A stretch of DNA of 64,000 nucleotides from Burkholderiales bacterium (GTDB taxonomy: Bacteria > Pseudomonadota > Gammaproteobacteria > Burkholderiales > SHXO01): the NCBI GenBank assembly GCA_020854105.1, contig JADZGB010000026.1:1-64000 (forward strand), written 5' to 3'. A program made the translations under genes and the position numbers. Numbering within the stretch: position 1 is the first letter of the stretch; each line of letters starts with the position of its first letter. The notes beneath the pieces were generated by a model. That model was not told the origin of the DNA. It did not search any database and saw only the letters and a list, made by a program, of their open reading frames with translations. Positions 12,980 through 24,751 of the stretch are shown here, piece after piece.

Positions 12980-15900
12980 TCAGATGCTAGTGGCGTCCGG
13001 GCGCGGCGCCGCCGCCAGCTCACGCATGACGTCACGGTAGATCGCCTCCGACTCGGCCGAGGGCCGCACGCCCAGCACCGCAGACAGCGTCTGGCGCAAC
13101 CGCCGGTAGGCGCTCACCGCCTCGGTGAGCCGGCCCATGCGCCAGTAGCAGCGCATCAGGCCGCGATGGAAACCCTCCACCACCACATCGGCGTCGATCC
13201 CGCGCAGATACAGCCGCGCCGCGTCCTCCAGGTCGCAGGATGCCTCCAGCGCCTGCCCGTGCGTGGCCAGTGCGTGGATGAACTTGCCGCGGATGCGCTC
13301 GCGCATGGCCACGCTCCACTGCTGATCGTCGTCCTCGGGCAGGAAGCTGCCCGCGTACAGATCGAGCAGCCCGCGCATGCGCTCGGACGTCATCGGCTCC
13401 TCGAGCGCGGCTTCGAAGCGCCATGCGTCCACCCAGCAGAGGTGACGGTCGAGCCAGACCTTGCCGCCCTGGTGCCCCACCGCCTCGTCACTGCCCAGTA
13501 GCTTGCGCAGGCGCATGACCGTCACCCCCAGAACCTGCCTGGCCGCGTCCGCCTCCTCGTCGCCCCACAGCGCATCGCACAGCCACTGCTCCGGGACGTC
13601 CTCGTGCCGATAGGCCACCAGCGCCTTGAGCAGGGCGAGCGTCTTCTTCGGGACCTTGCGCGAGAACTCGAGGGGCTTGTCGTTGACCTCGACCTCGAAT
13701 CGCCCGAGCGTGCGGATGCGGATCGGCCGCGGCCACCGGTCCGGCGCATCGGCTGGCGGCCTGAGCCGGAACATGCGGATCAGCTGCTGCACCAACTCGA
13801 CCTGGATGCCCTCGCACAGGGCGAGCGAGAACATCGGCGGCATGGAGCATTCCATGTAGCGCAGGTAATACTTCCCTATGCCGTCGCCGGCGCTCGACAG
13901 CGCCTGCGTGAGAAGCGCGGCGCACGCGGGCAGGCGATTCTCCCGACAGGCCAGGAAGGCTTCGCACAGCATCGCGGCTGGGCGCCAGCATGCCAGCTCC
14001 GGGCTGCGCGCGATCACGTCGATCGAACGTCGCAGCAGCGGGCGCGCCTCGTCCATCCTGCCCGCTCCGATCAGCACCTCGGCATTGAACAGTCCGAAGG
14101 ACATCAGGTTCTGCGGGGCGCCGACGCGACGGATCGCCTCGTCGGACGCGACCGCCAGCTCCGCGGCTTCGGTCCAGCGCCCGTAGTGATGAGCGCGACG
14201 GGCCTGGTAGATCCGCAACAATGCCAGCGACATCGGGCGCCTCGGTGGCGAATCGGCTTCGATCTCGCGCAAGCCTGCGTCAGTCCTGTCCCAGCCGTGG
14301 GTGCGAAATGCGACCATCACGCGATACAGGCGAATGTCCGACAGTGCATCCTTCAGACCCGACGCTTCGGCAACCTCGATTGCCAGATCGAAGTAGCACA
14401 ACGCATCCTCGTAGCGTGCCTGCACGAAGCGCAGGTAGGCCACGCCGAACAGGAACCATGCGCGCGCGCTCGGACTTGCGCGCGGATCCCGCGCAATGGG
14501 CTCGATGAGCGAAACCAGTTCCTCACCCTGCTGCAAGCCTCCGGCGGTCAGGTCGGATACGAGGGCGGAAGCGGCGGCTGCCAGAGCCTCCGTCGGATCC
14601 TGCTGCTGCCTCAGCAAGTCCTGCACGCGCACTCTCGCCTCCGTCGTCAGCGCATGCCACGGACGCCACAACGGCAGGACGGCGACGATTGCGGACCACG
14701 TGGCCAGCTCCTCATACGCCACACCATCCGCGTCGGCGGCCTCGATCTGCTCGAGCAGTTCCCCTAGCCACGCGTCGGCAAAGGGGATTGCCGCATGACC
14801 GAGCTGAGCGGCCTTGAGAAGCGCGGCCAGGCACTGAATCCTGCCGACCCGATCGGTGCTCGATGACAGCAGGTCTCTCGCCCGAGAAAGGGTCACGAGC
14901 CCGACCCCCGGATCGCCATCGACCTGCGCGATGCCCTGCCAGTACAGCAGACGAGGGTTCGCGTCCAGAAGCTCGGAAGGCAGTGCGCCGATCCAGGCCT
15001 CCAGCGTCTGCCGGCGTGCGCTCTTCATCAACCCATGTGCTGCGCCGAGGATCACAGGCACCGCACCCGTCCAGTCTCCGGCCGCGAAATGCAGAGGTAT
15101 CGCTGCCTCTACGTCTCCGCAATCGGCCAGGGTCCGTGCAGATTGCCTCAGCAGATGCAGAAGTCCAGGCGGATCCTTCGCAGTCCGTGCGCGCCGCTGG
15201 AGGAAATCCCGGAACATGGCGTGGAACTGATACACGGGTTCGATCCCGGGGCGCCGGTCCGTGAACAGGTTTCTGCGATAGAGATCCTCCAGAAGTGCAC
15301 CGCCCTCCTCCCGCCCGGTCAGCCGCAGTGCCATCGATGCCGAGACATAGGGCAGAAAGGACAGCGACAGCAGCAACTCGCGGCTGGCTTCGGATGTGTG
15401 CTCGAACAAGAGGCTGGCGAAGTAATCGAAGACGGATTCACGGGTGTCGATCGTCAGTTCGCGTGCATCCGCCTCCCTCTGCCCCAATCGCTCGAGCATC
15501 AGCGTGATGCCCGCTGCCCAGCCCTCGGACTGCTGATGCAGGGCACGAACCAGCCAGTCGTCACGCACCGCACGCACCTCGGACAAGGCCCGGGTTTCCT
15601 CGAGCGTCAGCCGCAGCGCCTCCCAGCGCAGGCTGAACAGCACGCCGCCCCCGATCAGCTGTGCGAAGGAACCGGGCGTACCGAACCGGCTCACACCGAT
15701 GATGGAACTGCCCGGCGATACCTCGCCGACCGCGGCGCGCACGATGTCGTGCATGGAAGCATCCCGCGGAACTTCCTGATAGTTGTCCAGCACCAGCACG
15801 ATGCCGGCTGGCAGCCGGCGGAACAGCTCGCGGAAGAAGCTGCGAGAGAACGCGGGAAGGTCGGTGCCGTGCTCGGCGACCAGCCGGGGCAGCGGCAGCG

Positions 15901-16180
15901 CGATCTCGCCCAGAAACGATTCTGCGGCGATGGTGAGGTAGTGGAACAGATTGGCGGGGTCGGCATCGCCGTCGTCCACTTGATACCACAGGCAGGGAAT
16001 GCCTCGGGCATCGAGGTAGCTCGCGGCCAGAGCAGTCTTGCCGGCACCCGGAGGGCCCTGGATCCAGATCAGCGGCCGCCCCCGGTTCTCGTCCAGGCGG
16101 GCAAACAGGCGTTCACGCGGCACTACCCCGAACAGCCGGGGCGTGCTGGTCTTGGCCAGCGACGCGGGCAGCCCCTTCAT
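12980..16180 (-). CDS. STAND ATPase / BTAD transcriptional regulator (copy 1)
   Basis: The 1066-residue protein begins with an NTPase module of the MalT/STAND type (LAKTSTPRLFG, Walker A GPPGAGKT near residue 42, then LVLDNYQE as Walker B). A long helical TPR-like region follows. From about residue 818 there is an OmpR-like winged helix (RIRTLGRFEVEVND) and a bacterial transcriptional activation domain (BTAD) to the end. Such proteins are ligand- and ATP-gated activators. GGAGG precedes the start. The upstream co-directional gene encodes a small secreted protein; copy 2 is at 18967-22044 and a collapsed copy 3 at 23554-24751. Confidence 0.85.
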   Translation of the reverse strand: MKGLPASLAKTSTPRLFGVVPRERLFARLDENRGRPLIWIQGPPGAGKTALAASYLDARGIPCLWYQVDDGDADPANLFHYLTIAAESFLGEIALPLPRLVAEHGTDLPAFSRSFFRELFRRLPAGIVLVLDNYQEVPRDASMHDIVRAAVGEVSPGSSIIGVSRFGTPGSFAQLIGGGVLFSLRWEALRLTLEETRALSEVRAVRDDWLVRALHQQSEGWAAGITLMLERLGQREADARELTIDTRESVFDYFASLLFEHTSEASRELLLSLSFLPYVSASMALRLTGREEGGALLEDLYRRNLFTDRRPGIEPVYQFHAMFRDFLQRRARTAKDPPGLLHLLRQSARTLADCGDVEAAIPLHFAAGDWTGAVPVILGAAHGLMKSARRQTLEAWIGALPSELLDANPRLLYWQGIAQVDGDPGVGLVTLSRARDLLSSSTDRVGRIQCLAALLKAAQLGHAAIPFADAWLGELLEQIEAADADGVAYEELATWSAIVAVLPLWRPWHALTTEARVRVQDLLRQQQDPTEALAAAASALVSDLTAGGLQQGEELVSLIEPIARDPRASPSARAWFLFGVAYLRFVQARYEDALCYFDLAIEVAEASGLKDALSDIRLYRVMVAFRTHGWDRTDAGLREIEADSPPRRPMSLALLRIYQARRAHHYGRWTEAAELAVASDEAIRRVGAPQNLMSFGLFNAEVLIGAGRMDEARPLLRRSIDVIARSPELACWRPAAMLCEAFLACRENRLPACAALLTQALSSAGDGIGKYYLRYMECSMPPMFSLALCEGIQVELVQQLIRMFRLRPPADAPDRWPRPIRIRTLGRFEVEVNDKPLEFSRKVPKKTLALLKALVAYRHEDVPEQWLCDALWGDEEADAARQVLGVTVMRLRKLLGSDEAVGHQGGKVWLDRHLCWVDAWRFEAALEEPMTSERMRGLLDLYAGSFLPEDDDQQWSVAMRERIRGKFIHALATHGQALEASCDLEDAARLYLRGIDADVVVEGFHRGLMRCYWRMGRLTEAVSAYRRLRQTLSAVLGVRPSAESEAIYRDVMRELAAAPRPDATSI

Positions 16181-16271: not shown

Positions 16272-16769
16272 CTACTTCAGCTCGTACATGCCCTTGTTAT
16301 GGTGGCAGCCAGAGTACCCGTCCGGGCCGAGTCCGGGATAGAAGTCGAGTTTGTACTCTCCATTCACGGTCATGCCAACATATTTCCCGGTTCCCTGGAC
16401 CGCGGTATATGTCCCGCCCGAGTTGTCCTGCCTCCCGTGATACTCCATCAACCACGTGTCGCCATCCATGTCGACCAACTGGCAGTAGCCCAAGTGCGAT
16501 GCCTTGCCGGCGACGATGCCCAGCGTACCCCAGCACCTGGCGGCCTGCCGGTCGAAGGCGCCTCCCGTCGGGATGGCGTTCAGGACTGCGACACCCGAGT
16601 AGTGCGTGGCATAGACCTGGTCGCTCGCCGCGATGGTGGTTCCGCTGCCGATCGTGCAGAACTTCAGCTCGTAGCTTCCCTCCCTGGGCATGTCGACCTT
16701 TCCGGCCAGTGCCGTGGCAGTGCATGCGGCGAATGCGATCCCTGCAAGTGATGCGGCAGCACGTCTCAT
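16272..16769 (-). CDS. Small secreted protein, GTGKY family (paralogue A)
   Basis: The 165-residue product has a signal peptide (AAASLAGIAFAACTATALA) and a mature part rich in Gly, Tyr and Thr. No known domain was recognised. The core Cys-Gly, GYCQLVDMDGDTW and GGTYTAVQGTGKYVG align with the product of 45717-46175 (GVCVRK, GDSW, RGTWKQIGGTGVFAG), so they form a family; the protein at 50748 shares the GGTGKF core. The predicted fold is a small all-beta barrel, by inference. The ATG has AGGGAGGACG upstream and overlaps the stop of the small upstream ORF by ATGA, so the two are coupled. The BTAD regulator follows 91 nt downstream. Confidence 0.75.
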   Translation of the reverse strand: MRRAAASLAGIAFAACTATALAGKVDMPREGSYELKFCTIGSGTTIAASDQVYATHYSGVAVLNAIPTGGAFDRQAARCWGTLGIVAGKASHLGYCQLVDMDGDTWLMEYHGRQDNSGGTYTAVQGTGKYVGMTVNGEYKLDFYPGLGPDGYSGCHHNKGMYELK

Positions 16770-16954
16770 CGATCGTCCTCCCTGGCGGTGGATGGAAAAC
16801 GCCGCTGGGAGGAGGACTGCTGCAACGCGGACCACAGTTCGGCAGCGCAGCGAAAGGGCACGACCTCGCCCGATTCCACCGCTTCCAACGTCCCCGTCAT
16901 TGCCTCATCGTCATGGCGATAGATCCGGACGACGTAGCTGCGCTGCACTTCCAT
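16766..16954 (-). CDS. Small conserved-type ORF, 62 residues
   Basis: The product is short and soluble (YVVRIYRHDDEAMTGTLEAVESGEVVPFRCAAELWSAL). From memory this pattern, an R-Y-x-V-R-I-Y-R strand, a G-x-V/L-E-x-V-E-x-G turn and a final AELW helix, is common in small uncharacterised proteobacterial proteins, which supports it being real. It overlaps the start of the secreted-protein gene by 4 nt and would be cotranslated with it. It lacks a signal peptide. Function unknown. Confidence 0.6.
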   Translation of the reverse strand: MEVQRSYVVRIYRHDDEAMTGTLEAVESGEVVPFRCAAELWSALQQSSSQRRFPSTAREDDR

Positions 16955-17090: not shown

Positions 17091-17522
17091 TCAGCGCCGG
17101 GGCGCGCTCATCTGGCTGCACTCCGGCCCGTCGTTGCTGGCCCGCAGATAGGCCAGCAGGTCGGCCCGCTCCCGGGCGTCGGGAATGCCGGCATAGCCCA
17201 TCCTGGTTCCCGGAACGGTCTTCAGCGGGTCGGCGATGAAGCGATCCAGCGTCTCGCTGTTCCAGACCAGCTTGGAATTCTTCATGGCCTTGGAATACTC
17301 GAAGCCTTCGACGCTTCCCGCGCGGCGACCGAACAGGCCGCAGTGGTGCGGACCCACGCGATCGTAGTCCAGCGAATGGCAGGCGCCGCAGCGGGCGTAG
17401 ATCTCCTTGCCCCGGCCTGCGTCGCCTTCCGTGGCAATGGCGCCCGTGGCGGCCGGCACACTGCCCGCCGCGGCGGCGAGCAGAATGCCGGCCAGCACAG
17501 TCGCTGGCCGGCGGGCGGTCAC
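17091..17522 (-). CDS. Secreted class I cytochrome c
   Basis: The 143-residue product has a signal peptide (VLAGILLAAAAGSVPAATG), one haem site CGACH at about residues 45-49, and a likely distal Met in PGTRMGYAGI. The spacing and DLLAYLR C-terminal helix are those of cytochrome c2/c550. It is a paralogue of the cytochrome at 1943-2347, sharing GLFGR, the F-I-A-x-P segment and PGTxM. The GTG start overlaps the stop of the upstream ferritin-like gene (GTGA, 17519-17522), so it belongs to the sigma factor - ferritin-like - cytochrome operon. It presumably accepts or donates electrons in the periplasm. Confidence 0.9.
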   Translation of the reverse strand: MTARRPATVLAGILLAAAAGSVPAATGAIATEGDAGRGKEIYARCGACHSLDYDRVGPHHCGLFGRRAGSVEGFEYSKAMKNSKLVWNSETLDRFIADPLKTVPGTRMGYAGIPDARERADLLAYLRASNDGPECSQMSAPRR

Positions 17523-18106
17523 GACACGAACGCCGACGGCACCGGCACCTCGCCCAGCGCGTTGCGCAGGATCGCCCAGTGCATCGCCTCGTCACCGAGG
17601 ATGCTGGCTGCCGCCTTGGCCAGATCGCGGTTTCCGAACACCGGCACGGCGCCCAGGTAGGCACTCACCGCGCCCTGTTCAAGCCCGGCGGCGAAGCGCA
17701 GCACGTCGGCCTGGTTCTTGAGCCTGGCCACCGGAAAGTCGTACTTGCTCCTGGGCTCGACCGGCTTGCCGCCGAGCTTGGCGACGGTCTTGGCCAGCAA
17801 GTCGGCATGTTGCCTGTGGTGACCCTGAAACGTCACGGCCAGGCTCAGTACCGGCTTCTGCAGCAGCCCACTCTCCGCGCCCACCTGGTAGGCGGCGATG
17901 GCTTCCAGCTCTGCACCCAGCGCAGTGTTGAGGATGTCGATGTCAGAGGTTTTCGCCGCGCCCTCGGCTTCGTCCCGGGCGAGCGACTCGCGGCCGGCGA
18001 GCAGCGCGATGGCGCTGCCGGACAGCACTAGCCCCGAGCGCCTCAGAAAGCTGCGCCGATCATCGGCGGCGATGGCAATTCCTGTTGGTCGTATCGCGTG
18101 TTTCAT
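17519..18106 (-). CDS. Exported ferritin-like domain protein
   Basis: The 195-residue protein begins with a twin-arginine-type leader (DRRSFLRRSGLVLSG) and then a four-helix ferritin-like bundle: GAELEAIAAYQ, FQGHHRQHADLLAKT, LEQGAVSAYLG and GDEAMHWAIL, the last giving an E-x-x-H pair. The repeated acidic and His residues are those of a carboxylate di-iron or ferritin-like site. The second in-frame ATG (18106) was chosen because AGGAG lies 9 nt upstream of it. It is sandwiched between an ECF sigma gene and a cytochrome gene, suggesting a redox or metal stress function. Export in folded form fits the leader. Confidence 0.8.
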   Translation of the reverse strand: MKHAIRPTGIAIAADDRRSFLRRSGLVLSGSAIALLAGRESLARDEAEGAAKTSDIDILNTALGAELEAIAAYQVGAESGLLQKPVLSLAVTFQGHHRQHADLLAKTVAKLGGKPVEPRSKYDFPVARLKNQADVLRFAAGLEQGAVSAYLGAVPVFGNRDLAKAAASILGDEAMHWAILRNALGEVPVPSAFVS

Positions 18107-18119
18107 TTGCATCTGCTCC

Positions 18120-18842
18120 TCAGTGGTCGGCGGCGTGCGAGCCGCCGGTGGACGGGTCCTGCAGCTGCGCCAGCACGCCGGCGACGATGCGATCGCACCG
18201 CTCGCCAGCGAAACCGAAGGCGTTCTCCAGGCTGAAATCAATCTCGCGCGCCAGCGCTTCGCGCAACAGGCCGCGCGCCCGGAAGTAGCGCGTGCGCACG
18301 GTCGCCTCGGGCACACCCAGGCAGGCGGAGGTTTCCTCCACCGTCATCTCCTCCAGTGCGCGCAGCACGAACACGCTGCGCAAGGCATCCGGCAGGGCAT
18401 CGATCCTGCGTTCGATCAGGCGGCGCACCTCCGCGCGCCAGGCAGCGCTCTCAGGCGCTTCGACGGCATCCTGTGGCATGGGAAGTTCCTCTGCCGATTC
18501 GGCTTCCAGGGCGACATCGCTGGCGAGAGGAATGATCTCGGCGCGACGCCGGTACTTGCGCGCGCGCGCCAGCGCTTCGTTGATGGCGATGCGAGTGAGC
18601 CAGGTCGACAGCCTGGCCTCGCCCCGAAAAGCGCCGATGGTTCTGTACGCCTGGAGAAAGGCCTGCTGCACCACGTCCTCGGCATCGGCGTCGTTCTTCA
18701 GGATGCTGCGGGCCGCGCGGTACAGCGGCCGGTTGTAACGGCGCATCAGCGCCTCGAGCGCTCCCGCCTCGCCCGCGGCGATGTACTGGGCGAGAGCGGC
18801 GTCGCTCAGATCCTGTAATGCAACTGCAGTGGCCTTGAGCAA
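18120..18842 (-). CDS. ECF-type RNA polymerase sigma factor
   Basis: The 240-residue protein has sigma region 2 (RRYNRPLYRAARSILKNDADAEDVVQQAFLQAY, then GEARLSTWLTRIAIN) and region 4 (LPDALRSVFVLRALEEMTVEETSACLGVPEATVRTRYFRAR). A short C-terminal extension (ENAFGFAGERCDRIVAGVLAQL) has the look of the RpoE-like tail seen where an anti-sigma domain is absent. The ferritin-like gene starts 13 nt downstream, so they are cotranscribed. No anti-sigma gene is visible on either side. A divergent BTAD regulator gene starts 124 nt upstream. Confidence 0.9.
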   Translation of the reverse strand: MLKATAVALQDLSDAALAQYIAAGEAGALEALMRRYNRPLYRAARSILKNDADAEDVVQQAFLQAYRTIGAFRGEARLSTWLTRIAINEALARARKYRRRAEIIPLASDVALEAESAEELPMPQDAVEAPESAAWRAEVRRLIERRIDALPDALRSVFVLRALEEMTVEETSACLGVPEATVRTRYFRARGLLREALAREIDFSLENAFGFAGERCDRIVAGVLAQLQDPSTGGSHAADH

Positions 18843-18966
18843 GGTGGTTTCCCGTGTGGTGAATGGTCATGTACCGATTGGATGTCGCGAGCGCGCACCG
18901 CGTTCCGGCATTCGGACTATGATGCCTGGTGCCACCCCGCCCATGACTCGATCAGGCAGGTGCACC

Positions 18967-21900
18967 ATGCGCATCGCACGCTCAGCCGCTCCTGCGAAAG
19001 TTACACCCCCGCGCATGCGCCGAGCGATCGAGCGGCCTCGCCTGTTCGATGCGCTGGACGATGCCCGCTGCTGTCCCTGCATGTGGCTGTGCGCCCCTCC
19101 GGGCGCGGGCAAGACCACCCTGGTGGCGGGCTATGTTCGCGCTCGCGGACTGCGCAGCGTCTGGCTGCAACTGGATGCAGCCGATGCCGACCCGGCGACG
19201 TTCTTCTACTTCCTTCGCAGCGCGCTGCAGCTCGCGGCCACCCGACGCGCGCACCTGCCGCCGCTGTTCACGCCCGAGTACCGCCAGGATCTGACGGCGT
19301 TCTCGCGCCGCTTCATGCGCACGGCGGTCGCAGCCCTGGGCGGCGACGCAGTGGTGGTGCTGGACAATTTCCAGGAGCTGGGCGACCCGCCCGCCTTGAG
19401 CACTGCCATCGCGGCGTGCCTGGAGGAGCTCCCCGAGCGCCTGAATGTGATCGTGATCAGCCGTACCGAGCCGCCCGCCGCGTTCGCGCGCGCGCAGGTC
19501 AACAGCCTGGTCGCGCGTGTGGGATGGGAGTCGATGCGCCTGACGCCCGCCGAGACCGCAGCACTCGCTCGGGAACGGGGAATCCGCGCGCCGCACATCG
19601 TGCGTGCGCTGCACGATCGCACCAGCGGCTGGGTGGCCGGGCTGGTGCTGCTCACCGACCGCACGGTGCAGGCCGTCGATGCGCCGATCCTCGATGGTCC
19701 CGCGTCGATGGAATTTTTGTTCGACTACTTCGCTGCACAGGTCTTCGACGCGCTGCCTGCCACGACCCGGGAGGTCGCCGTGGCCGTGAGCCTGCTACCC
19801 CACATCAGTGCCAAGGGGGCGCGGGCCGTGAGCGGATGCGAAGACGCCATCGTCCACATCGATGCCCTCCACCGCCGTAGTCTGTTTACCGACCGTGTGG
19901 ACGGCGAGATTCCAGTCTATCGCTATCACGCGCTGTTCCGTGCGTTCCTGCGCTCGCGGGCGCTGCGGCTCTATACCGCCGCGGACATGCACGAGCGTCT
20001 GCAGCACGCCGCGGCGAGCTTCGAGGCGGACGGGGATCTGGAGCATGCCTTCCATCTCCACCTCGAGGCACGGGCGCTCGATCGCGCGGGTGCCGCCTTC
20101 ATCGCCCACGCCCCGTCGCTCATCGCCCAGGGACGCTGGCAGACCCTGCTGGAGTGGCACACGCTGCTGGCCGCTGCGGACGCGCCGCGCAACCCCTGGA
20201 TCGGATTGTGGATGGGACGTGGCCTGAGTCCCGTCGACCCGGTGGCCGCCCGCGGCTATCTGGAAGGAGCCTTCGAGGCGTTCCGCGCAGTGTCGGACGA
20301 TCTCGGGCGCCTGCTCTGTGCGGTCGGCGTGCTGGAGACGCTGTATTTCGAGTACGACGCGTTTCGCCCGATGGACCGCTGGATCGACGAGGTAGCGGCA
20401 CACCTGGTCGCACAGGCGCCTGCGCTCGGGCCGGGGGATGCGCTGTGGGCACACGCCGTGTTCATGGTTGCGTGCTGTTATCGCAGCCCGGGACATGCCC
20501 TTCTGCCGCGAGCCGTTGCACGCGTCGAGGCGCTGCTGCCCGGTGAAACCGACGTCAACCTGAGCGTCACCGCGGCTTCCATGCTGCACTTCTATGCCTA
20601 CGCCGCCGCGGATGCCAACGCCGCAGCCGTTGCCACCCACGCGGCGCGCCCGCTGCTTGGCTCCGATCAACTCACCGCACAGCGCGCCGCACTCTATCTG
20701 GGCGAAGAGGGCTATGGCCACTACGCCTTCGTCCGATACCCAGAGGCCCTGGCATGCTTCGACGAAGCCGAGGTGATCGTGAACGAGCACGCCCTGCGCC
20801 ACCTGGAGAGCCGCTGCAAGCAGTGGCGCGGCTTCTGCGAGCGGCGCGCCGGCATGCTGCACGAGGCGAAGCTCACGCTGGAGCGCCTGACGCATCTGCC
20901 GCATCCGCGCCAGGGCATCCGTGCCTGCCTCACCCAGATTCTGGCGGCTTATATCGCCTTCGACGAGGGGGACGTACAGGGCGCCCTGGACACCGCGCTG
21001 GCCGCGCAGCAGATGGGTGTCGAAGCGGGAAAGACCACCATCGTACTCATGCACGTGATCCACGCCGGCATGCTGATCGAGGCGGCGCAGTTCGCGCGCG
21101 CCACCGAGCTACTGGATACAGCCTCGGCTCTGGCGAACGGAACGATCCTGGCATACCAGCTTGGACCGATTGCCCTGATGCGGGCGCTGCTCGCTATCCG
21201 CGCCGAGTCCGCAGGTGTGGCCATCCGGGCAACGTCGAGCGCTTTGTCGGCCAGCCGGAAGCCGCGGGAGTTGCAGGCGATGCGCTGGTACCCCAGGGCA
21301 CTGTCCGAAGCGGTCGGCTTTGCCCTCGAACACGGCATCGAGGTGGAGCACGCACGGCGCCTCATCGCGCAATGTCGCCTGCCGGCGCACGACAACCTCT
21401 CCGCGGCCTGGCCAAGAAAGGTGAAGATCCGCACGCTAGGCGGCTTCGAGCTGCTCGTGGACGACGCGCCGCCGTCATACTCGCGCAAGCTCCCGTATCG
21501 GGTGCTGCTGCTCCTCAAGCTGATGATCGCGTTCGGTGGCACGGACGTACCGGAGCAACGGCTGGCGGACACCCTGTGGCCGGATCTGGACGGCGATGCC
21601 GCCAGCAGGGCATTGGCTGCACTAGTGCATCGATTGCGGGCGCTGCTCCGCGATGCCGACGCACTCCATCACCGCGGCGGCACGCTGTCACTCGACAGCC
21701 AACGATGCTGGGTAGACGTGTTCGCCCTGCGGCATCGCGCACGCTCGCCCCTGCCGCAGCCGTTCCCGGCGGTCCTGGACTTGTATCGCGGCGCCTTCCT
21801 TCCCGGCGAGGACGAACCCTGGGCGCAACTCCTGCGCGAGCGCGCGCGTGACTGGGTCATCGCCCTCATGCGCCGTCATGCCGAAGCACTGGAGAGGGCG

Positions 21901-22044
21901 GGAGCGCTCCACGAGGCGGCGGCCTGCCATGCCGCCGTGCAGGAACGGGATGATGGACTCGAGCCACGCCATTCCGCGTCGAGCGACCAGGCAGTCAGCC
22001 CCGGCATTCGTCATTTCCGCGAAGCGTGGCCCGGAAGGCTCTAG
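18967..22044 (+). CDS. STAND ATPase / BTAD transcriptional regulator (copy 2)
   Basis: The 1025-residue product has the same layout as the regulator at 12980: an N-terminal APAKVTPPR box, Walker A APPGAGKT near residue 43, VVVLDNFQE as Walker B, a TPR-rich middle, an OmpR-like winged helix from about residue 820 (KIRTLGGFELLVDD) and a C-terminal BTAD. The ATG at 18967 was chosen over several upstream because GGCAGG precedes it and the N-terminus then lines up with copy 1. It is divergent from the ECF sigma operon and directly upstream of the LivK-type binding protein, its likely partner or target. Confidence 0.85.
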   Translation: MRIARSAAPAKVTPPRMRRAIERPRLFDALDDARCCPCMWLCAPPGAGKTTLVAGYVRARGLRSVWLQLDAADADPATFFYFLRSALQLAATRRAHLPPLFTPEYRQDLTAFSRRFMRTAVAALGGDAVVVLDNFQELGDPPALSTAIAACLEELPERLNVIVISRTEPPAAFARAQVNSLVARVGWESMRLTPAETAALARERGIRAPHIVRALHDRTSGWVAGLVLLTDRTVQAVDAPILDGPASMEFLFDYFAAQVFDALPATTREVAVAVSLLPHISAKGARAVSGCEDAIVHIDALHRRSLFTDRVDGEIPVYRYHALFRAFLRSRALRLYTAADMHERLQHAAASFEADGDLEHAFHLHLEARALDRAGAAFIAHAPSLIAQGRWQTLLEWHTLLAAADAPRNPWIGLWMGRGLSPVDPVAARGYLEGAFEAFRAVSDDLGRLLCAVGVLETLYFEYDAFRPMDRWIDEVAAHLVAQAPALGPGDALWAHAVFMVACCYRSPGHALLPRAVARVEALLPGETDVNLSVTAASMLHFYAYAAADANAAAVATHAARPLLGSDQLTAQRAALYLGEEGYGHYAFVRYPEALACFDEAEVIVNEHALRHLESRCKQWRGFCERRAGMLHEAKLTLERLTHLPHPRQGIRACLTQILAAYIAFDEGDVQGALDTALAAQQMGVEAGKTTIVLMHVIHAGMLIEAAQFARATELLDTASALANGTILAYQLGPIALMRALLAIRAESAGVAIRATSSALSASRKPRELQAMRWYPRALSEAVGFALEHGIEVEHARRLIAQCRLPAHDNLSAAWPRKVKIRTLGGFELLVDDAPPSYSRKLPYRVLLLLKLMIAFGGTDVPEQRLADTLWPDLDGDAASRALAALVHRLRALLRDADALHHRGGTLSLDSQRCWVDVFALRHRARSPLPQPFPAVLDLYRGAFLPGEDEPWAQLLRERARDWVIALMRRHAEALERAGALHEAAACHAAVQERDDGLEPRHSASSDQAVSPGIRHFREAWPGRL

Positions 22045-22172: not shown

Positions 22173-23417
22173 ATGATCCGAACTTCACTTCGCGGCCTGC
22201 GCACGCTGCTCGTCGCCTTCATCGCCGCGCTGCCGACACTTGCGGCCGGCGCCGATCCGGTGCGCATCGCCATCCTCGAGCCGCTCACAGGCCCGTTCGC
22301 GAACACGGGCACGACCGCCGTGCGGGCCTTCCAGATGGAGCTCGAGCGCCTCAACGCCACCGGTGGTGCGCTCGGCACGGCCTTCGAACTGGTGCCGTTC
22401 GACAACAAGAGCAGTCCGCAGGAAGCGACCCTGCAGGTTCAGGCCGCCATCGACCAAGGCATCCGATACATCGTCCAGGGCTCGGGATCGAACGTCGGTC
22501 ACGCCATCAGCGACGCGGTGGCCCGGCACAACTCGCGCAACCCGGAGCGGACGGTCCTGTATCTCAACCACGGGGCGCTCGATCCCGCATTGACCGACGA
22601 TAAATGCCATTTCTGGCATTTCCGCTTCGTCGCGCACGGGCACATGATCATGCAGGCGGTCACCGACTCCATCGCCCGTCAGCCGGGCATCACTGCCGTC
22701 TACCTGATCAACCAGGACTATGCCTGGGGGCATGCCGTGGCACGCGACGCACGCAGCATGCTCGCCGCAAAGCGGCCCGACATACGCGTGGTCGGGGAGG
22801 ACCTGCATCAGATCGGGAAGGTGAAGGATTTCGCCCCCTACGTGGCCAAGATCAAGGCAGCCGGTGCGAATGCCATCGTCTCGGGCAACTGGGGCAACGA
22901 CCTGTCGCTGCTCATCCGCACGATCAAGGATGCCGGGCTTTCCATCGCCGTCTATGCACCTATCGCCGGACTGCAGGGGACGCCGGCGACCATCGGGGAT
23001 GCCGGTCCGGTGCGCGTCCGCGCAGCCCTGTTCTGGCATCCCAACCTGCCCCCTTCACCACTGCTGGATCACGCCCTTGCGTTCAAGGCGAGGTTCAGCG
23101 AAGACTGGAATTGGCTGCCGACCCACCTCGCCCCTGAAATGCTGCGCCGGGCGATGATCAAGGCCGACTCGGTCGATCCCGTGAAGGTGGCGCGTGCACT
23201 GGAAGGCCTGGAGTACGGCGGTCCCACCGGGAAGGTGTGGATACGGGCCGACGATCATCAGCTCATGATGCCGATCTACTCCACGATCTTCACCAAGGCA
23301 GGCGAGCCGGGCGTGAGGTTCGACGCGGAAGGCAGCGGGTTCGGCTGGAAGACGGAACAGATGCTGGCTGCAAGCGAAAATGTCCCGCCGCTGAAATGTC
23401 GCGTGAAGCGGCCATGA
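22173..23417 (+). CDS. ABC transporter substrate-binding protein, branched-chain amino-acid (LivK) type
   Basis: The 414-residue protein has a signal peptide and the periplasmic-binding type 1 fold of LivJ/LivK: VRIAILEPLTGPFANTG at the start of the mature chain, GSGSNVGHAISD, YLINQDYAWGHAVARDARSML, and a C-terminal lobe. GGGAGG precedes the ATG. The Urt/Liv class imports amino acids, amides or urea, and some members instead serve as sensors for regulators. No permease or ATPase gene is nearby, so this looks like an orphan binding protein next to the BTAD regulator. Confidence 0.85.
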   Translation: MIRTSLRGLRTLLVAFIAALPTLAAGADPVRIAILEPLTGPFANTGTTAVRAFQMELERLNATGGALGTAFELVPFDNKSSPQEATLQVQAAIDQGIRYIVQGSGSNVGHAISDAVARHNSRNPERTVLYLNHGALDPALTDDKCHFWHFRFVAHGHMIMQAVTDSIARQPGITAVYLINQDYAWGHAVARDARSMLAAKRPDIRVVGEDLHQIGKVKDFAPYVAKIKAAGANAIVSGNWGNDLSLLIRTIKDAGLSIAVYAPIAGLQGTPATIGDAGPVRVRAALFWHPNLPPSPLLDHALAFKARFSEDWNWLPTHLAPEMLRRAMIKADSVDPVKVARALEGLEYGGPTGKVWIRADDHQLMMPIYSTIFTKAGEPGVRFDAEGSGFGWKTEQMLAASENVPPLKCRVKRP

Positions 23418-23553
23418 GCGCGATTGCTTTCGATGCAGACCATCGACGAGCAGAAGCGGCGATGTCAGCCCGTCTGCGCCGCGCTTGTCGCGAGGCGCGC
23501 CTTGCACCCCTGCATCTGCATGTGCTCCTCGGCGGTCGACCGCGTGCGCGGCA

Positions 23554-24751
23554 TCACGCGCGGGACGCACCGATGGACTGCACCAGCGAGACCGTGGCCG
23601 CAGACGAGGAGACGCCCAGACCCCCGAGCAGAAACTGGCGGCAGCGGCCATGGCGTCGGCCTGGCGGCCTTGCCGGATGCGGCAGCGGATGAGTCCCTGG
23701 TGGAACGCCTCTGCCAGGTGATCGGCCTGCACGCCCCGCTCGAACAGCGCAATTGCCGATTCGGTGTCTCCGGAACGTTCGCGGGCGAGCGCCACGTCGG
23801 CGAGGCGCCCGACGAACTGCCGCCGCAGCTTCTCCCGCAGCACGACCGGCCACGCGGCTTCGCGCTCGTCCTGCAGGAACTCGCCCCGGTACAGATCGAG
23901 CACGCGTTCCAGCCCGGCCGGGTCGCGCAGCGCGCGTTCGAAGGCCGCCACGTCGATCCAGATGGCGCTGTGGTCGAGCGTCACGATCCCGTCCTCGATT
24001 CCCACCCGCTCGGGCGATCCCAGCAGCCTGCGCAGGCGGTGCGATGCCGTGCGGAAGGCTTCCCGCGCCGCATCGCCCTCGAGGTCCGGCCACAGCCGAT
24101 CGCACAGGAGTGACACGGGCATTCCGGCCTGCCCATGCGCGATGAGCGCCTCGAGCACCGCGATCGGCCTTCTCGGCGTCTTGTGCTCGAACCTGACCGG
24201 CACGTCGTCGCGGATCAGCTCGAAGCAGCCCAGCGTCCTGACGCGTACCGGCCATGGCCACTCCTCCTCCGCATCGGCTGCCGGCTTCACGCCCATCTCG
24301 CGGATGAGCGTCCTGAGCAGTGCGGGATCGATCCCGCCTCTCAAGGCGATCGGGAACAGCCGCGACATCGCCTCGCCGTACCAGCGCGCGCGCACACGCC
24401 CCGCAGCACCACGCAACGACTCCAGCGCTTCGGTCAGGCAGACGGTACGCACCTGGGCCTCGCCGCGTGCGGTGGCCTGGCTCCGGATGCGTGCAGCGCC
24501 TGGCGCAGATAGTGGAAGAAGGTGGCGACGTCCGCATCGCCGGCGTCTGTCTGGTGCCAGATGCCCGGCACCGCACGGGCGTGGAGATTGCCCGCCACCA
24601 GCGTGGTCTTTCCCGCGCCGGGTGGGCCCACCACCCACACGACGGAACGTTCGCGCGCGGCATCCATGGCCGCGAACAGGCGCTCCCGCGGGATCACCCC
24701 GCGCAACCGTGGACGCGTGAGCTTCGCCAGCCTGGGACGAGTGCGTGGCAT
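23554..24751 (-). pseudogene. Collapsed STAND ATPase / BTAD regulator (copy 3)
   Basis: The N-terminus is intact (AKLTRPRLRGVIPRERLFA, Walker A VGPPGAGKT) but the frame is lost after about 95 residues, near 24470. The next frame resumes with the winged helix (VRVRTLGCFELIRDD) and BTAD, that is, at the position of residue ~735 of the intact copies, so about 640 codons of ATPase and TPR region are missing. A second shift near 23630 moves the last residues (GVSSSAATVSLVQSI) into a third frame. It is a clear relic of a third paralogue. An assembly collapse is the main alternative. Confidence 0.8.

Follow-up and report, generated by a model that had tools for sequence, protein, structure and literature searches.

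An ECF29-type sigma factor without an adjoining anti-sigma gene, its probable ferritin-like and cytochrome c cargo, and a conserved cysteine in its C-terminal tail

How might a sigma factor be controlled when no anti-sigma gene lies beside it? This question is raised by a three-gene operon on contig JADZGB010000026.1 (assembly GCA_020854105.1) of a Burkholderiales bacterium, of which positions 1 to 64,000 of the forward strand were analysed (the window). On the minus strand, between 17091 and 18842, genes for an extracytoplasmic function (ECF) sigma factor, a Ferritin_2 protein and a c-type cytochrome follow one another, tightly packed and in that order of transcription. Between the sigma stop codon and the ATG of the ferritin-like gene lie seven bases (GGAGCAG), and the GTG of the cytochrome gene shares four bases (GTGA) with the ferritin-like stop codon. 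An initial annotation had described a packed trio encoding a sigma factor, an exported ferritin-like protein and a haem protein, which the layout of open reading frames (ORFs) and the Pfam matches bear out; it had also proposed that the redox state of the two exported proteins sets sigma activity. On balance, we favour a different reading, namely a self-contained switch of group ECF29 in which the sigma factor would activate its own promoter, would be controlled by its C-terminal tail via Cys216, and would have the ferritin-like protein and cytochrome as its response.

The window sigma matched Pfam regions 2 and 4 (Sigma70_r2, Sigma70_r4_2) and scored 289.1 bits on NF008888 (PRK11922.1; cutoff 204), a model on which S. 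meliloti RpoE8 (SMb20592) scored 323.1 bits. The two sigma factors are 43% identical over 216 columns, tail included. RpoE8 has been classed as ECF29 (PMC6180224), and its gene was located on pSymB (L137) through the two promoter strings printed in that paper for rpoE8 and SMb20593, both of which L137 carries exactly. By sequence, the window sigma is an ECF29 member; this assignment rests on RpoE8, and NF008888 would then correspond to ECF29. Its family-model score, promoter, C-terminal extension and lack of an adjoining anti-sigma gene are all traits of the group. The rhizobial arrangement, in which an SMb20593-type gene and a blue copper protein gene lie downstream, is replaced in the window by Ferritin_2 and cytochrome c; we did not treat the rhizobial neighbours as defining ECF29, since DUF4142 or cupredoxin genes occur in 17/50 relatives and Ferritin_2 genes in 18/50. 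SMb20593 itself would be a DUF4142 protein, judging from an annotated homologue in L138. Two other groups were considered and dropped. ECF26 (S. meliloti RpoE1/RpoE4), suggested by its cytochrome and azurin neighbours, has a downstream COG5662 anti-sigma and a GGAATA / GT promoter (PMC3511301, PMC6180224), neither of which is seen at the window, where no anti-sigma lies alongside and the promoter reads GGAACG / CATCCAAT. ECF294, considered for its Herbaspirillum example, has as its extension a SnoaL-like domain of 120-150 residues. In open-licence PMC papers, an ECF29 sigma with Ferritin_2 and cytochrome c cargo was not found described, and the trio would be a new member of the group.

The initial annotation had overlooked the promoter; a search for target promoters found a site at 18878-18906, as well as sites in relatives. 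The ECF29 consensus is GGGAAC at -35 and GCATCCAA at -10 (PMC6180224), and the window promoter agrees with it at 5/6 positions (CGGAAC) and 7/8 positions (ACATCCAA), respectively. The -10 element lies 34 bases ahead of the TTG of the sigma gene and thus supports that codon as the start; with an ECF29-type promoter in this place, the operon probably activates itself. When the upstream regions of 51 sigma genes (the window and 50 relatives) were scanned with a strict pattern (GGAAC-N14..18-CATCYAA), the promoter was found in 30, with a spacer between GGAAC and CATC of 17 bases in 28 and 16 in two, compared with 2/10,200 shuffled copies of the same stretches. A looser form was present in 34/51, compared with 10/10,200.

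Genome-wide, GGAACG-N15..16-CATCYAA occurred 18 times in 11 of the 16 other sigma-carrying genomes of a sample of the order, versus 2 occurrences of a reversed-pattern control. Twelve of the 18 sites lie at the sigma operon (one between the sigma and ferritin genes, G540; one about 0.9 kb upstream, G409), and locus L110 has a second site between these two genes. In genome G564, where the sigma gene is on contig C12, one site precedes a ferritin-like (76% identical) and cytochrome pair on contig C42 (L115/L153), so that an unlinked pair stands behind the sigma's own promoter. Single sites precede a c-type haem protein in G414 (by eye) and, in G537, genes for a small secreted protein and then a cupredoxin-like protein whose start is of Tat type (twin-arginine translocation; by eye). 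Chance was taken to explain two further matches, one ahead of a patatin-like gene in G540 and one within a long frame in G423. The other off-operon site of G564 (L157, G564:C42:35075) precedes folE, encoding GTP cyclohydrolase I (named by eye). folE also lies within 3 kb of the sigma gene in seven other loci (L011, L012, L015, L018, L027, L030 and L092), which suggests that this response also needs a cofactor. In four Gammaproteobacteria (L013 to L016), the sigma gene is followed by a gene of a secreted family (about 230-280 residues, with the common stretch NMFGGxSYQG), which in L015 and L016 has its own strict ECF29-type promoter.

If the sigma factor activates itself, what restrains it? That no anti-sigma gene adjoins the operon was confirmed: Pfam and NCBIfam searches found no anti-sigma family among the five proteins scanned (the trio and the next two ORFs), nor in three regulator-like window ORFs that were also scanned. 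In the relatives, 351 co-directional ORFs were listed, of which 200 were picked by eye for scanning, and no anti-sigma was among the families shown (25/61 and 25/37). The zinc anti-sigma motif HxxxCxxC was present in 3 of the 351, none of which was judged a plausible anti-sigma. According to PMC6180224, ECF29 has no known anti-sigma candidate, the regulation of RpoE8 is still a mystery, and 126-fold overexpression of rpoE8 revealed no target.

The initial annotation passed over the conserved C-terminal tail of the sigma factor, FxFxGxRCDRIVxxVLxRL. In an alignment of the window sigma with 49 of the 50 relatives (rows 38-75% identical to the window sigma), all 50 rows have F211, G213 and C216, 49/50 have D217 and 45/50 have F209; L102 was left out, and its tail, read separately, contains the motif. 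RpoE8 (FPFAGKRCER) and the Variovorax sigma carry it too. Sigma factors of the window type extend 39-61 residues past the region-4 match, whereas five ECF sigmas accompanied by an RskA-type anti-sigma stop 6-12 residues after region 4. An AlphaFold2 model of the window sigma (pLDDT 86.8, pTM 0.63) places a confident helix at residues 213-228, after the last helix of region 4. ECF29 is among the groups whose regulatory extensions are said to await mechanistic study (PMC8999054, Table 2).

Because the tail is invariant, no anti-sigma is known and the published overexpression was without effect, we infer that the tail most likely controls sigma activity from within, in place of an anti-sigma; the 126-fold overexpression of rpoE8 with no detected target points to a post-translational lock. 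In the cytoplasm, Cys216 would be modified or would bind a redox signal or a metal, and this would release or stabilise the active sigma. The active sigma would recognise its own promoter, GGAACG ... CATCCAAT, and amplify its own operon, thereby co-expressing an exported ferritin-like protein with a putative dinuclear metal site and a periplasmic cytochrome c. These two proteins would be the response, most likely acting jointly in periplasmic metal or oxidant handling. A broader proposal, which we put forward tentatively and regard as possible but doubtful, is that ECF29 sigmas are one-component sensors, in which a single invariant cysteine in a C-terminal helix of about 20 residues (FxFxGxRCDRIV) gates a sigma that is otherwise complete, replaces the anti-sigma and drives exchangeable exported metalloproteins (Ferritin_2/cytochrome c or DUF4142/cupredoxin) and folE through one promoter code. 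If so, this tail would, to our knowledge, be the shortest built-in control element known for an ECF sigma.

Several observations weigh against the self-contained switch. The strict promoter is missing upstream of 21/51 sigma genes. Five of these have near matches close upstream (L015, L020, L103, L105 and, by eye, L016), and in six more a strict or near match lies farther upstream, where a longer operon seems to start (L024, L026, L030, L032, L033, L109). In four relatives in which the sigma gene comes last (L038, L098, L099 and L096, the latter three being the same places as L092, L093 and L094), inspection by eye showed a GGGAAC/CGGAAC...CAT site ahead of the ferritin-like gene. No promoter was recognised anywhere near L010, L029, L037, L091, L107 or L111, and 5 of the 16 other sigma-carrying genomes of the order sample lack the strict site genome-wide. 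The window's own genome yielded two strict matches (the window site and one inside an ORF) versus four in a reversed control, and two versus two when up to two mismatches were allowed; only the site before the sigma gene is therefore persuasive, and no further target is claimed. The -10 element also discriminates poorly: two RskA-linked loci (L129, L130) show, by eye, a -10-like CATCCAATCG upstream of the ferritin gene, so that -10 elements alone do not separate ECF29 from RskA-type systems. As for the tail, a single cysteine makes a thin sensor, no other Cys or His being kept throughout the alignment, and the conserved residues could be structural or could bind RNA polymerase. Finally, the missing targets of RpoE8 could reflect an overexpressed protein that was unstable or not produced at all, and an inhibitor gene could sit elsewhere in the genome.

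The sigma factor is scattered in its distribution. With the window genome counted, it was found in 6/60 relatives (E up to 1e-30), 5/274 genomes of the class and 17/300 genomes of the order (both E up to 1e-40); within the genus, it was present in one of three other genomes, one of the remaining two being 68% complete. Where it occurs, its linkage to a ferritin-like gene (E up to 1e-15) exceeds chance. Among the 16 other sigma-carrying genomes of the order sample, that gene adjoins the sigma gene in 10 (same strand in 9, divergent in 1), lies elsewhere in 1 and was not seen at E 1e-15 in 5. In the class sample, it adjoins the sigma gene or is one gene off in 3/4 other sigma genomes. Carriers of the trio include Solimonas aquatica, Lautropia and two alphaproteobacterial metagenome-assembled genomes (L037, L038), and a plasmid of Variovorax sp. 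RA8 carries an annotated trio. The linkage is sporadic but wide, spanning Beta-, Gamma- and Alphaproteobacteria, and thus extends well past the close relatives to which it might have been confined.

Within 3 kb of the sigma gene in the 50 relatives, 12 of the 18 loci with Ferritin_2 also have a cytochrome gene, the 17 with DUF4142 or cupredoxin are without Ferritin_2, 4/50 have folE without either, 3/50 have the secreted family of about 230-280 residues (L015, counted under folE, has it as well) and 8/50 have none of these families. Since 29/50 loci hold less than 3 kb on at least one side, the presence of cargo is underestimated. On a tree of the window sigma and its 50 relatives, the Ferritin_2 label changes 9 times, at least 7 of these changes being forced by starred branches, versus 15.5 in shuffles; only starred forks were used, as the tree has long branches (L039, L111, L091). 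By this measure, Ferritin_2 linkage is clustered on the sigma tree but has been repeatedly gained or lost. The window sigma pairs with L011 (75% identity; support 99/89), a locus with folE. Among the ferritins, that of the window falls in the ECF29-linked set (97/92), its nearest neighbour by path being from its own genus (L007), and the Solimonas ferritin (45% identical) belongs to the other ferritin subfamily. Sigma and cargo thus seem, from these trees and identities, to have had partly separate histories.

What would the cargo do? The ferritin-like protein scored 125.3 bits on PF13668 (cutoff 24.7). It carries a Tat-type RRxFL motif; both arginines are identical in 31/31 aligned homologues, in agreement with the folded export proposed in the initial annotation. 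A candidate dinuclear metal site (E67, H98, H101, E144, E174 and H177, with residues counted from the codon at 18109) is likewise identical in 31/31 rows. The AlphaFold2 model (pLDDT 85.4) has four long helices, and its best Foldseek fits were RvY_06210 (the best, E 1.5e-5), Rv2844 and bacterioferritins. The cytochrome scored 29.7 bits on PF00034 (cutoff 21.3), and its N terminus resembles a signal peptide by eye. In an alignment without L106 and L115, its haem site CGACH (C45, C48, H49) is identical in 19/19 rows, as is Met108, a candidate axial ligand, and the protein is of class I. Our preferred reading is that the pair most likely serves periplasmic redox or metal handling.

For RvY_06210 (RvFeMP-1) and DRB0118, metabolite phosphatase activity and a dinuclear site have been reported (PMC11616004). 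With these proteins in the same Pfam family and RvY_06210 as top fold match, the window protein could likewise act as a metabolite phosphatase and not in iron or redox chemistry, and the operon could be a desiccation or damage response. We consider this improbable, although it is the strongest of the alternatives weighed here. Identity in the fold alignments is 28-30%, and a cytochrome c partner favours redox chemistry. Moreover, of the RvFeMP-1 metal ligands Glu51, Glu90 and His93 (PMC11616004), His93 aligns with H101 and the bridging Glu90 with H98, E67 being matched to Glu51 from the fold; with histidine in place of the bridging glutamate, the chemistry of the ferritin-like protein may differ. 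With His98 conserved in 31/31 homologues, Ferritin_2 may include a subfamily whose metal site is altered.

Sigma control could also work in other ways. The sigma factor might be free of post-translational control, with another regulator at the promoter region deciding whether it is produced and self-amplification following, and a candidate is at hand: a large regulator-like ORF with an AAA_22 domain, ending at 22044, is divergent from the sigma gene, and the intergenic region is common to both. Such transcription-only control is known in other anti-sigma-less ECF groups (PMC8999054). We judge it unlikely here, however. Relatives of the divergent protein were found in 0/50 sigma loci (tblastn E 1e-5; 29/50 loci short), RpoE8 at 126-fold activated no detected target despite a perfect promoter just downstream (PMC6180224), and the invariant tail is left unexplained. 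Somewhat less probable still is inhibition by an unlinked anti-sigma. Anti-sigma genes need not adjoin their sigma genes, and the conserved tail would be a plausible docking site; yet ECF29 has no identified candidate (PMC6180224), and none was among the families shown for the 200 neighbour ORFs of relatives. Its occurrence on plasmids and across scattered lineages likewise speaks for the sigma factor being self-contained.

The initial annotation's proposal that the redox state of the periplasmic ferritin-like/cytochrome pair sets sigma activity fared worst. It draws on the packing of the genes and on the order ferritin, cytochrome, sigma in some alpha- and gammaproteobacterial relatives. In five loci, however, a ferritin-like gene stands beside a different ECF sigma with an RskA_C anti-sigma; it follows these two genes in L123, L124, L129 and L130 and precedes them in L097, and in L129 and L130 (2/5) it is itself followed by a cytochrome gene. 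Neither strict nor loose scans found an ECF29-type promoter in these five loci, and of two RskA-linked sigmas scanned, one scored 62 bits on NF008888 and the other was unlisted. With the pair of G564 unlinked yet under the sigma's promoter, ferritin-like genes beside unrelated sigmas, no ferritin-like gene seen within 3 kb in 32/50 relatives, no cytochrome in 6 of the other 18, quite different neighbours and no known anti-sigma for RpoE8 of the same group, and no membrane-relay-like gene in the operon by reading of the ORFs alone, we regard the pair as a very improbable sensor. The ferritin-like protein and cytochrome look like output, not sensor. G564 also holds a second ferritin gene with a cytochrome gene (L132, G564:C11); this one is 54% identical, belongs to the other subfamily and lacks the promoter, so that both ferritin versions coexist in that genome.

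Coordinates of all features are collected in Table 1. Downstream of the trio, neither of the next two minus-strand ORFs has a Pfam or NCBIfam family above cutoff; the longer is an orphan that looks secreted. Two further regulator-like ORFs with BTAD domains lie in the window; relatives of the larger were likewise found in 0/50 sigma loci in the same tblastn search. No Rfam family matched the window at gathering thresholds. Gene neighbours were taken from all-ORF lists and homology.

Table 1. Positions of the operon, its promoter, the sigma tail and other features (window coordinates unless a locus is named)
Feature	Position	Strand	Basis
ECF29-type promoter: -35 GGAACG (18901-18906), -10 CATCCAAT (18877-18884)	18877..18906	-	pattern match, published consensus
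ECF29-type sigma gene, 240 aa, TTG start	18120..18842	-	NF008888 (PRK11922.1), Sigma70_r2 + r4_2, RpoE8 identity
C-terminal tail motif, residues 209-228; Cys216 codon 18195-18197	18159..18218	-	alignment, predicted helix
Tat-type exported Ferritin_2 gene, ATG start	17519..18112	-	PF13668
Class-I cytochrome c gene, GTG start	17091..17522	-	PF00034
Downstream ORF, 62 aa	16766-16954 (scanned as 16769-16954)	-	
Downstream ORF, ~160 aa	16272-16754 (scanned as 16275-16754)	-	
Large regulator-like ORF	12980-16180	-	BTAD domain, AAA-like matches
Large regulator-like ORF, divergent from sigma gene (start 18781 or 18967)	18967-22044	+	AAA_22 domain
Shorter regulator-like ORF	23055-24638	-	BTAD domain
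NMFGGxSYQG family	L013 9355-10104; L014 1600-2454; L015 9574-10260; L016 9625-10314		

With RpoE8 control a mystery in print (PMC6180224), this comparison offers a short invariant element, Cys216 and its helix, to mutate, along with a promoter code and natural targets usable as reporters. The tail cysteine is a better lead than feedback from the exported pair, which is unlikely. There is also a natural experiment to exploit, in that some bacteria have a ferritin-like gene beside a sigma with an anti-sigma, and others a related one under a sigma that has none.

Among known systems, the CorE-like sigmas (ECF44/ECF238, Myxococcus) resemble the window sigma in having no anti-sigma and a C-terminal extension containing cysteine (PMC8999054). 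They are marked by a cysteine-rich C-terminal domain and a CXC in the linker (PMC8999054), whereas the window sigma has one invariant Cys in a short helix and no CXC in its linker, and membership was rejected. The RskA-linked ECF systems share with the window a ferritin-like gene beside the sigma gene, and in L129 and L130 the cytochrome gene as well; they differ in their unrelated sigma with a short C-terminus and in the presence of an RskA_C anti-sigma. On the cargo side, RvFeMP-1 and DRB0118 have in common with the window protein the family PF13668, the four-helix bundle and a candidate dinuclear site. The window protein differs from both in the His98 that replaces the bridging Glu, in its Tat-type signal and in its cytochrome c partner, and it lacks the IgG-like domain of RvFeMP-1. 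The closest counterpart is RpoE8, which shares the family model, the FxFxGxRC tail, the GGAAC / CATCCAA promoter and the lack of a known anti-sigma, and which likewise leads a cluster that also encodes small exported metalloproteins. The two differ in the tail, which reads RCER in S. meliloti and RCDR in the window, and in their cargo, SMb20593 and amicyanin in S. meliloti but Ferritin_2 and cytochrome c in the window.

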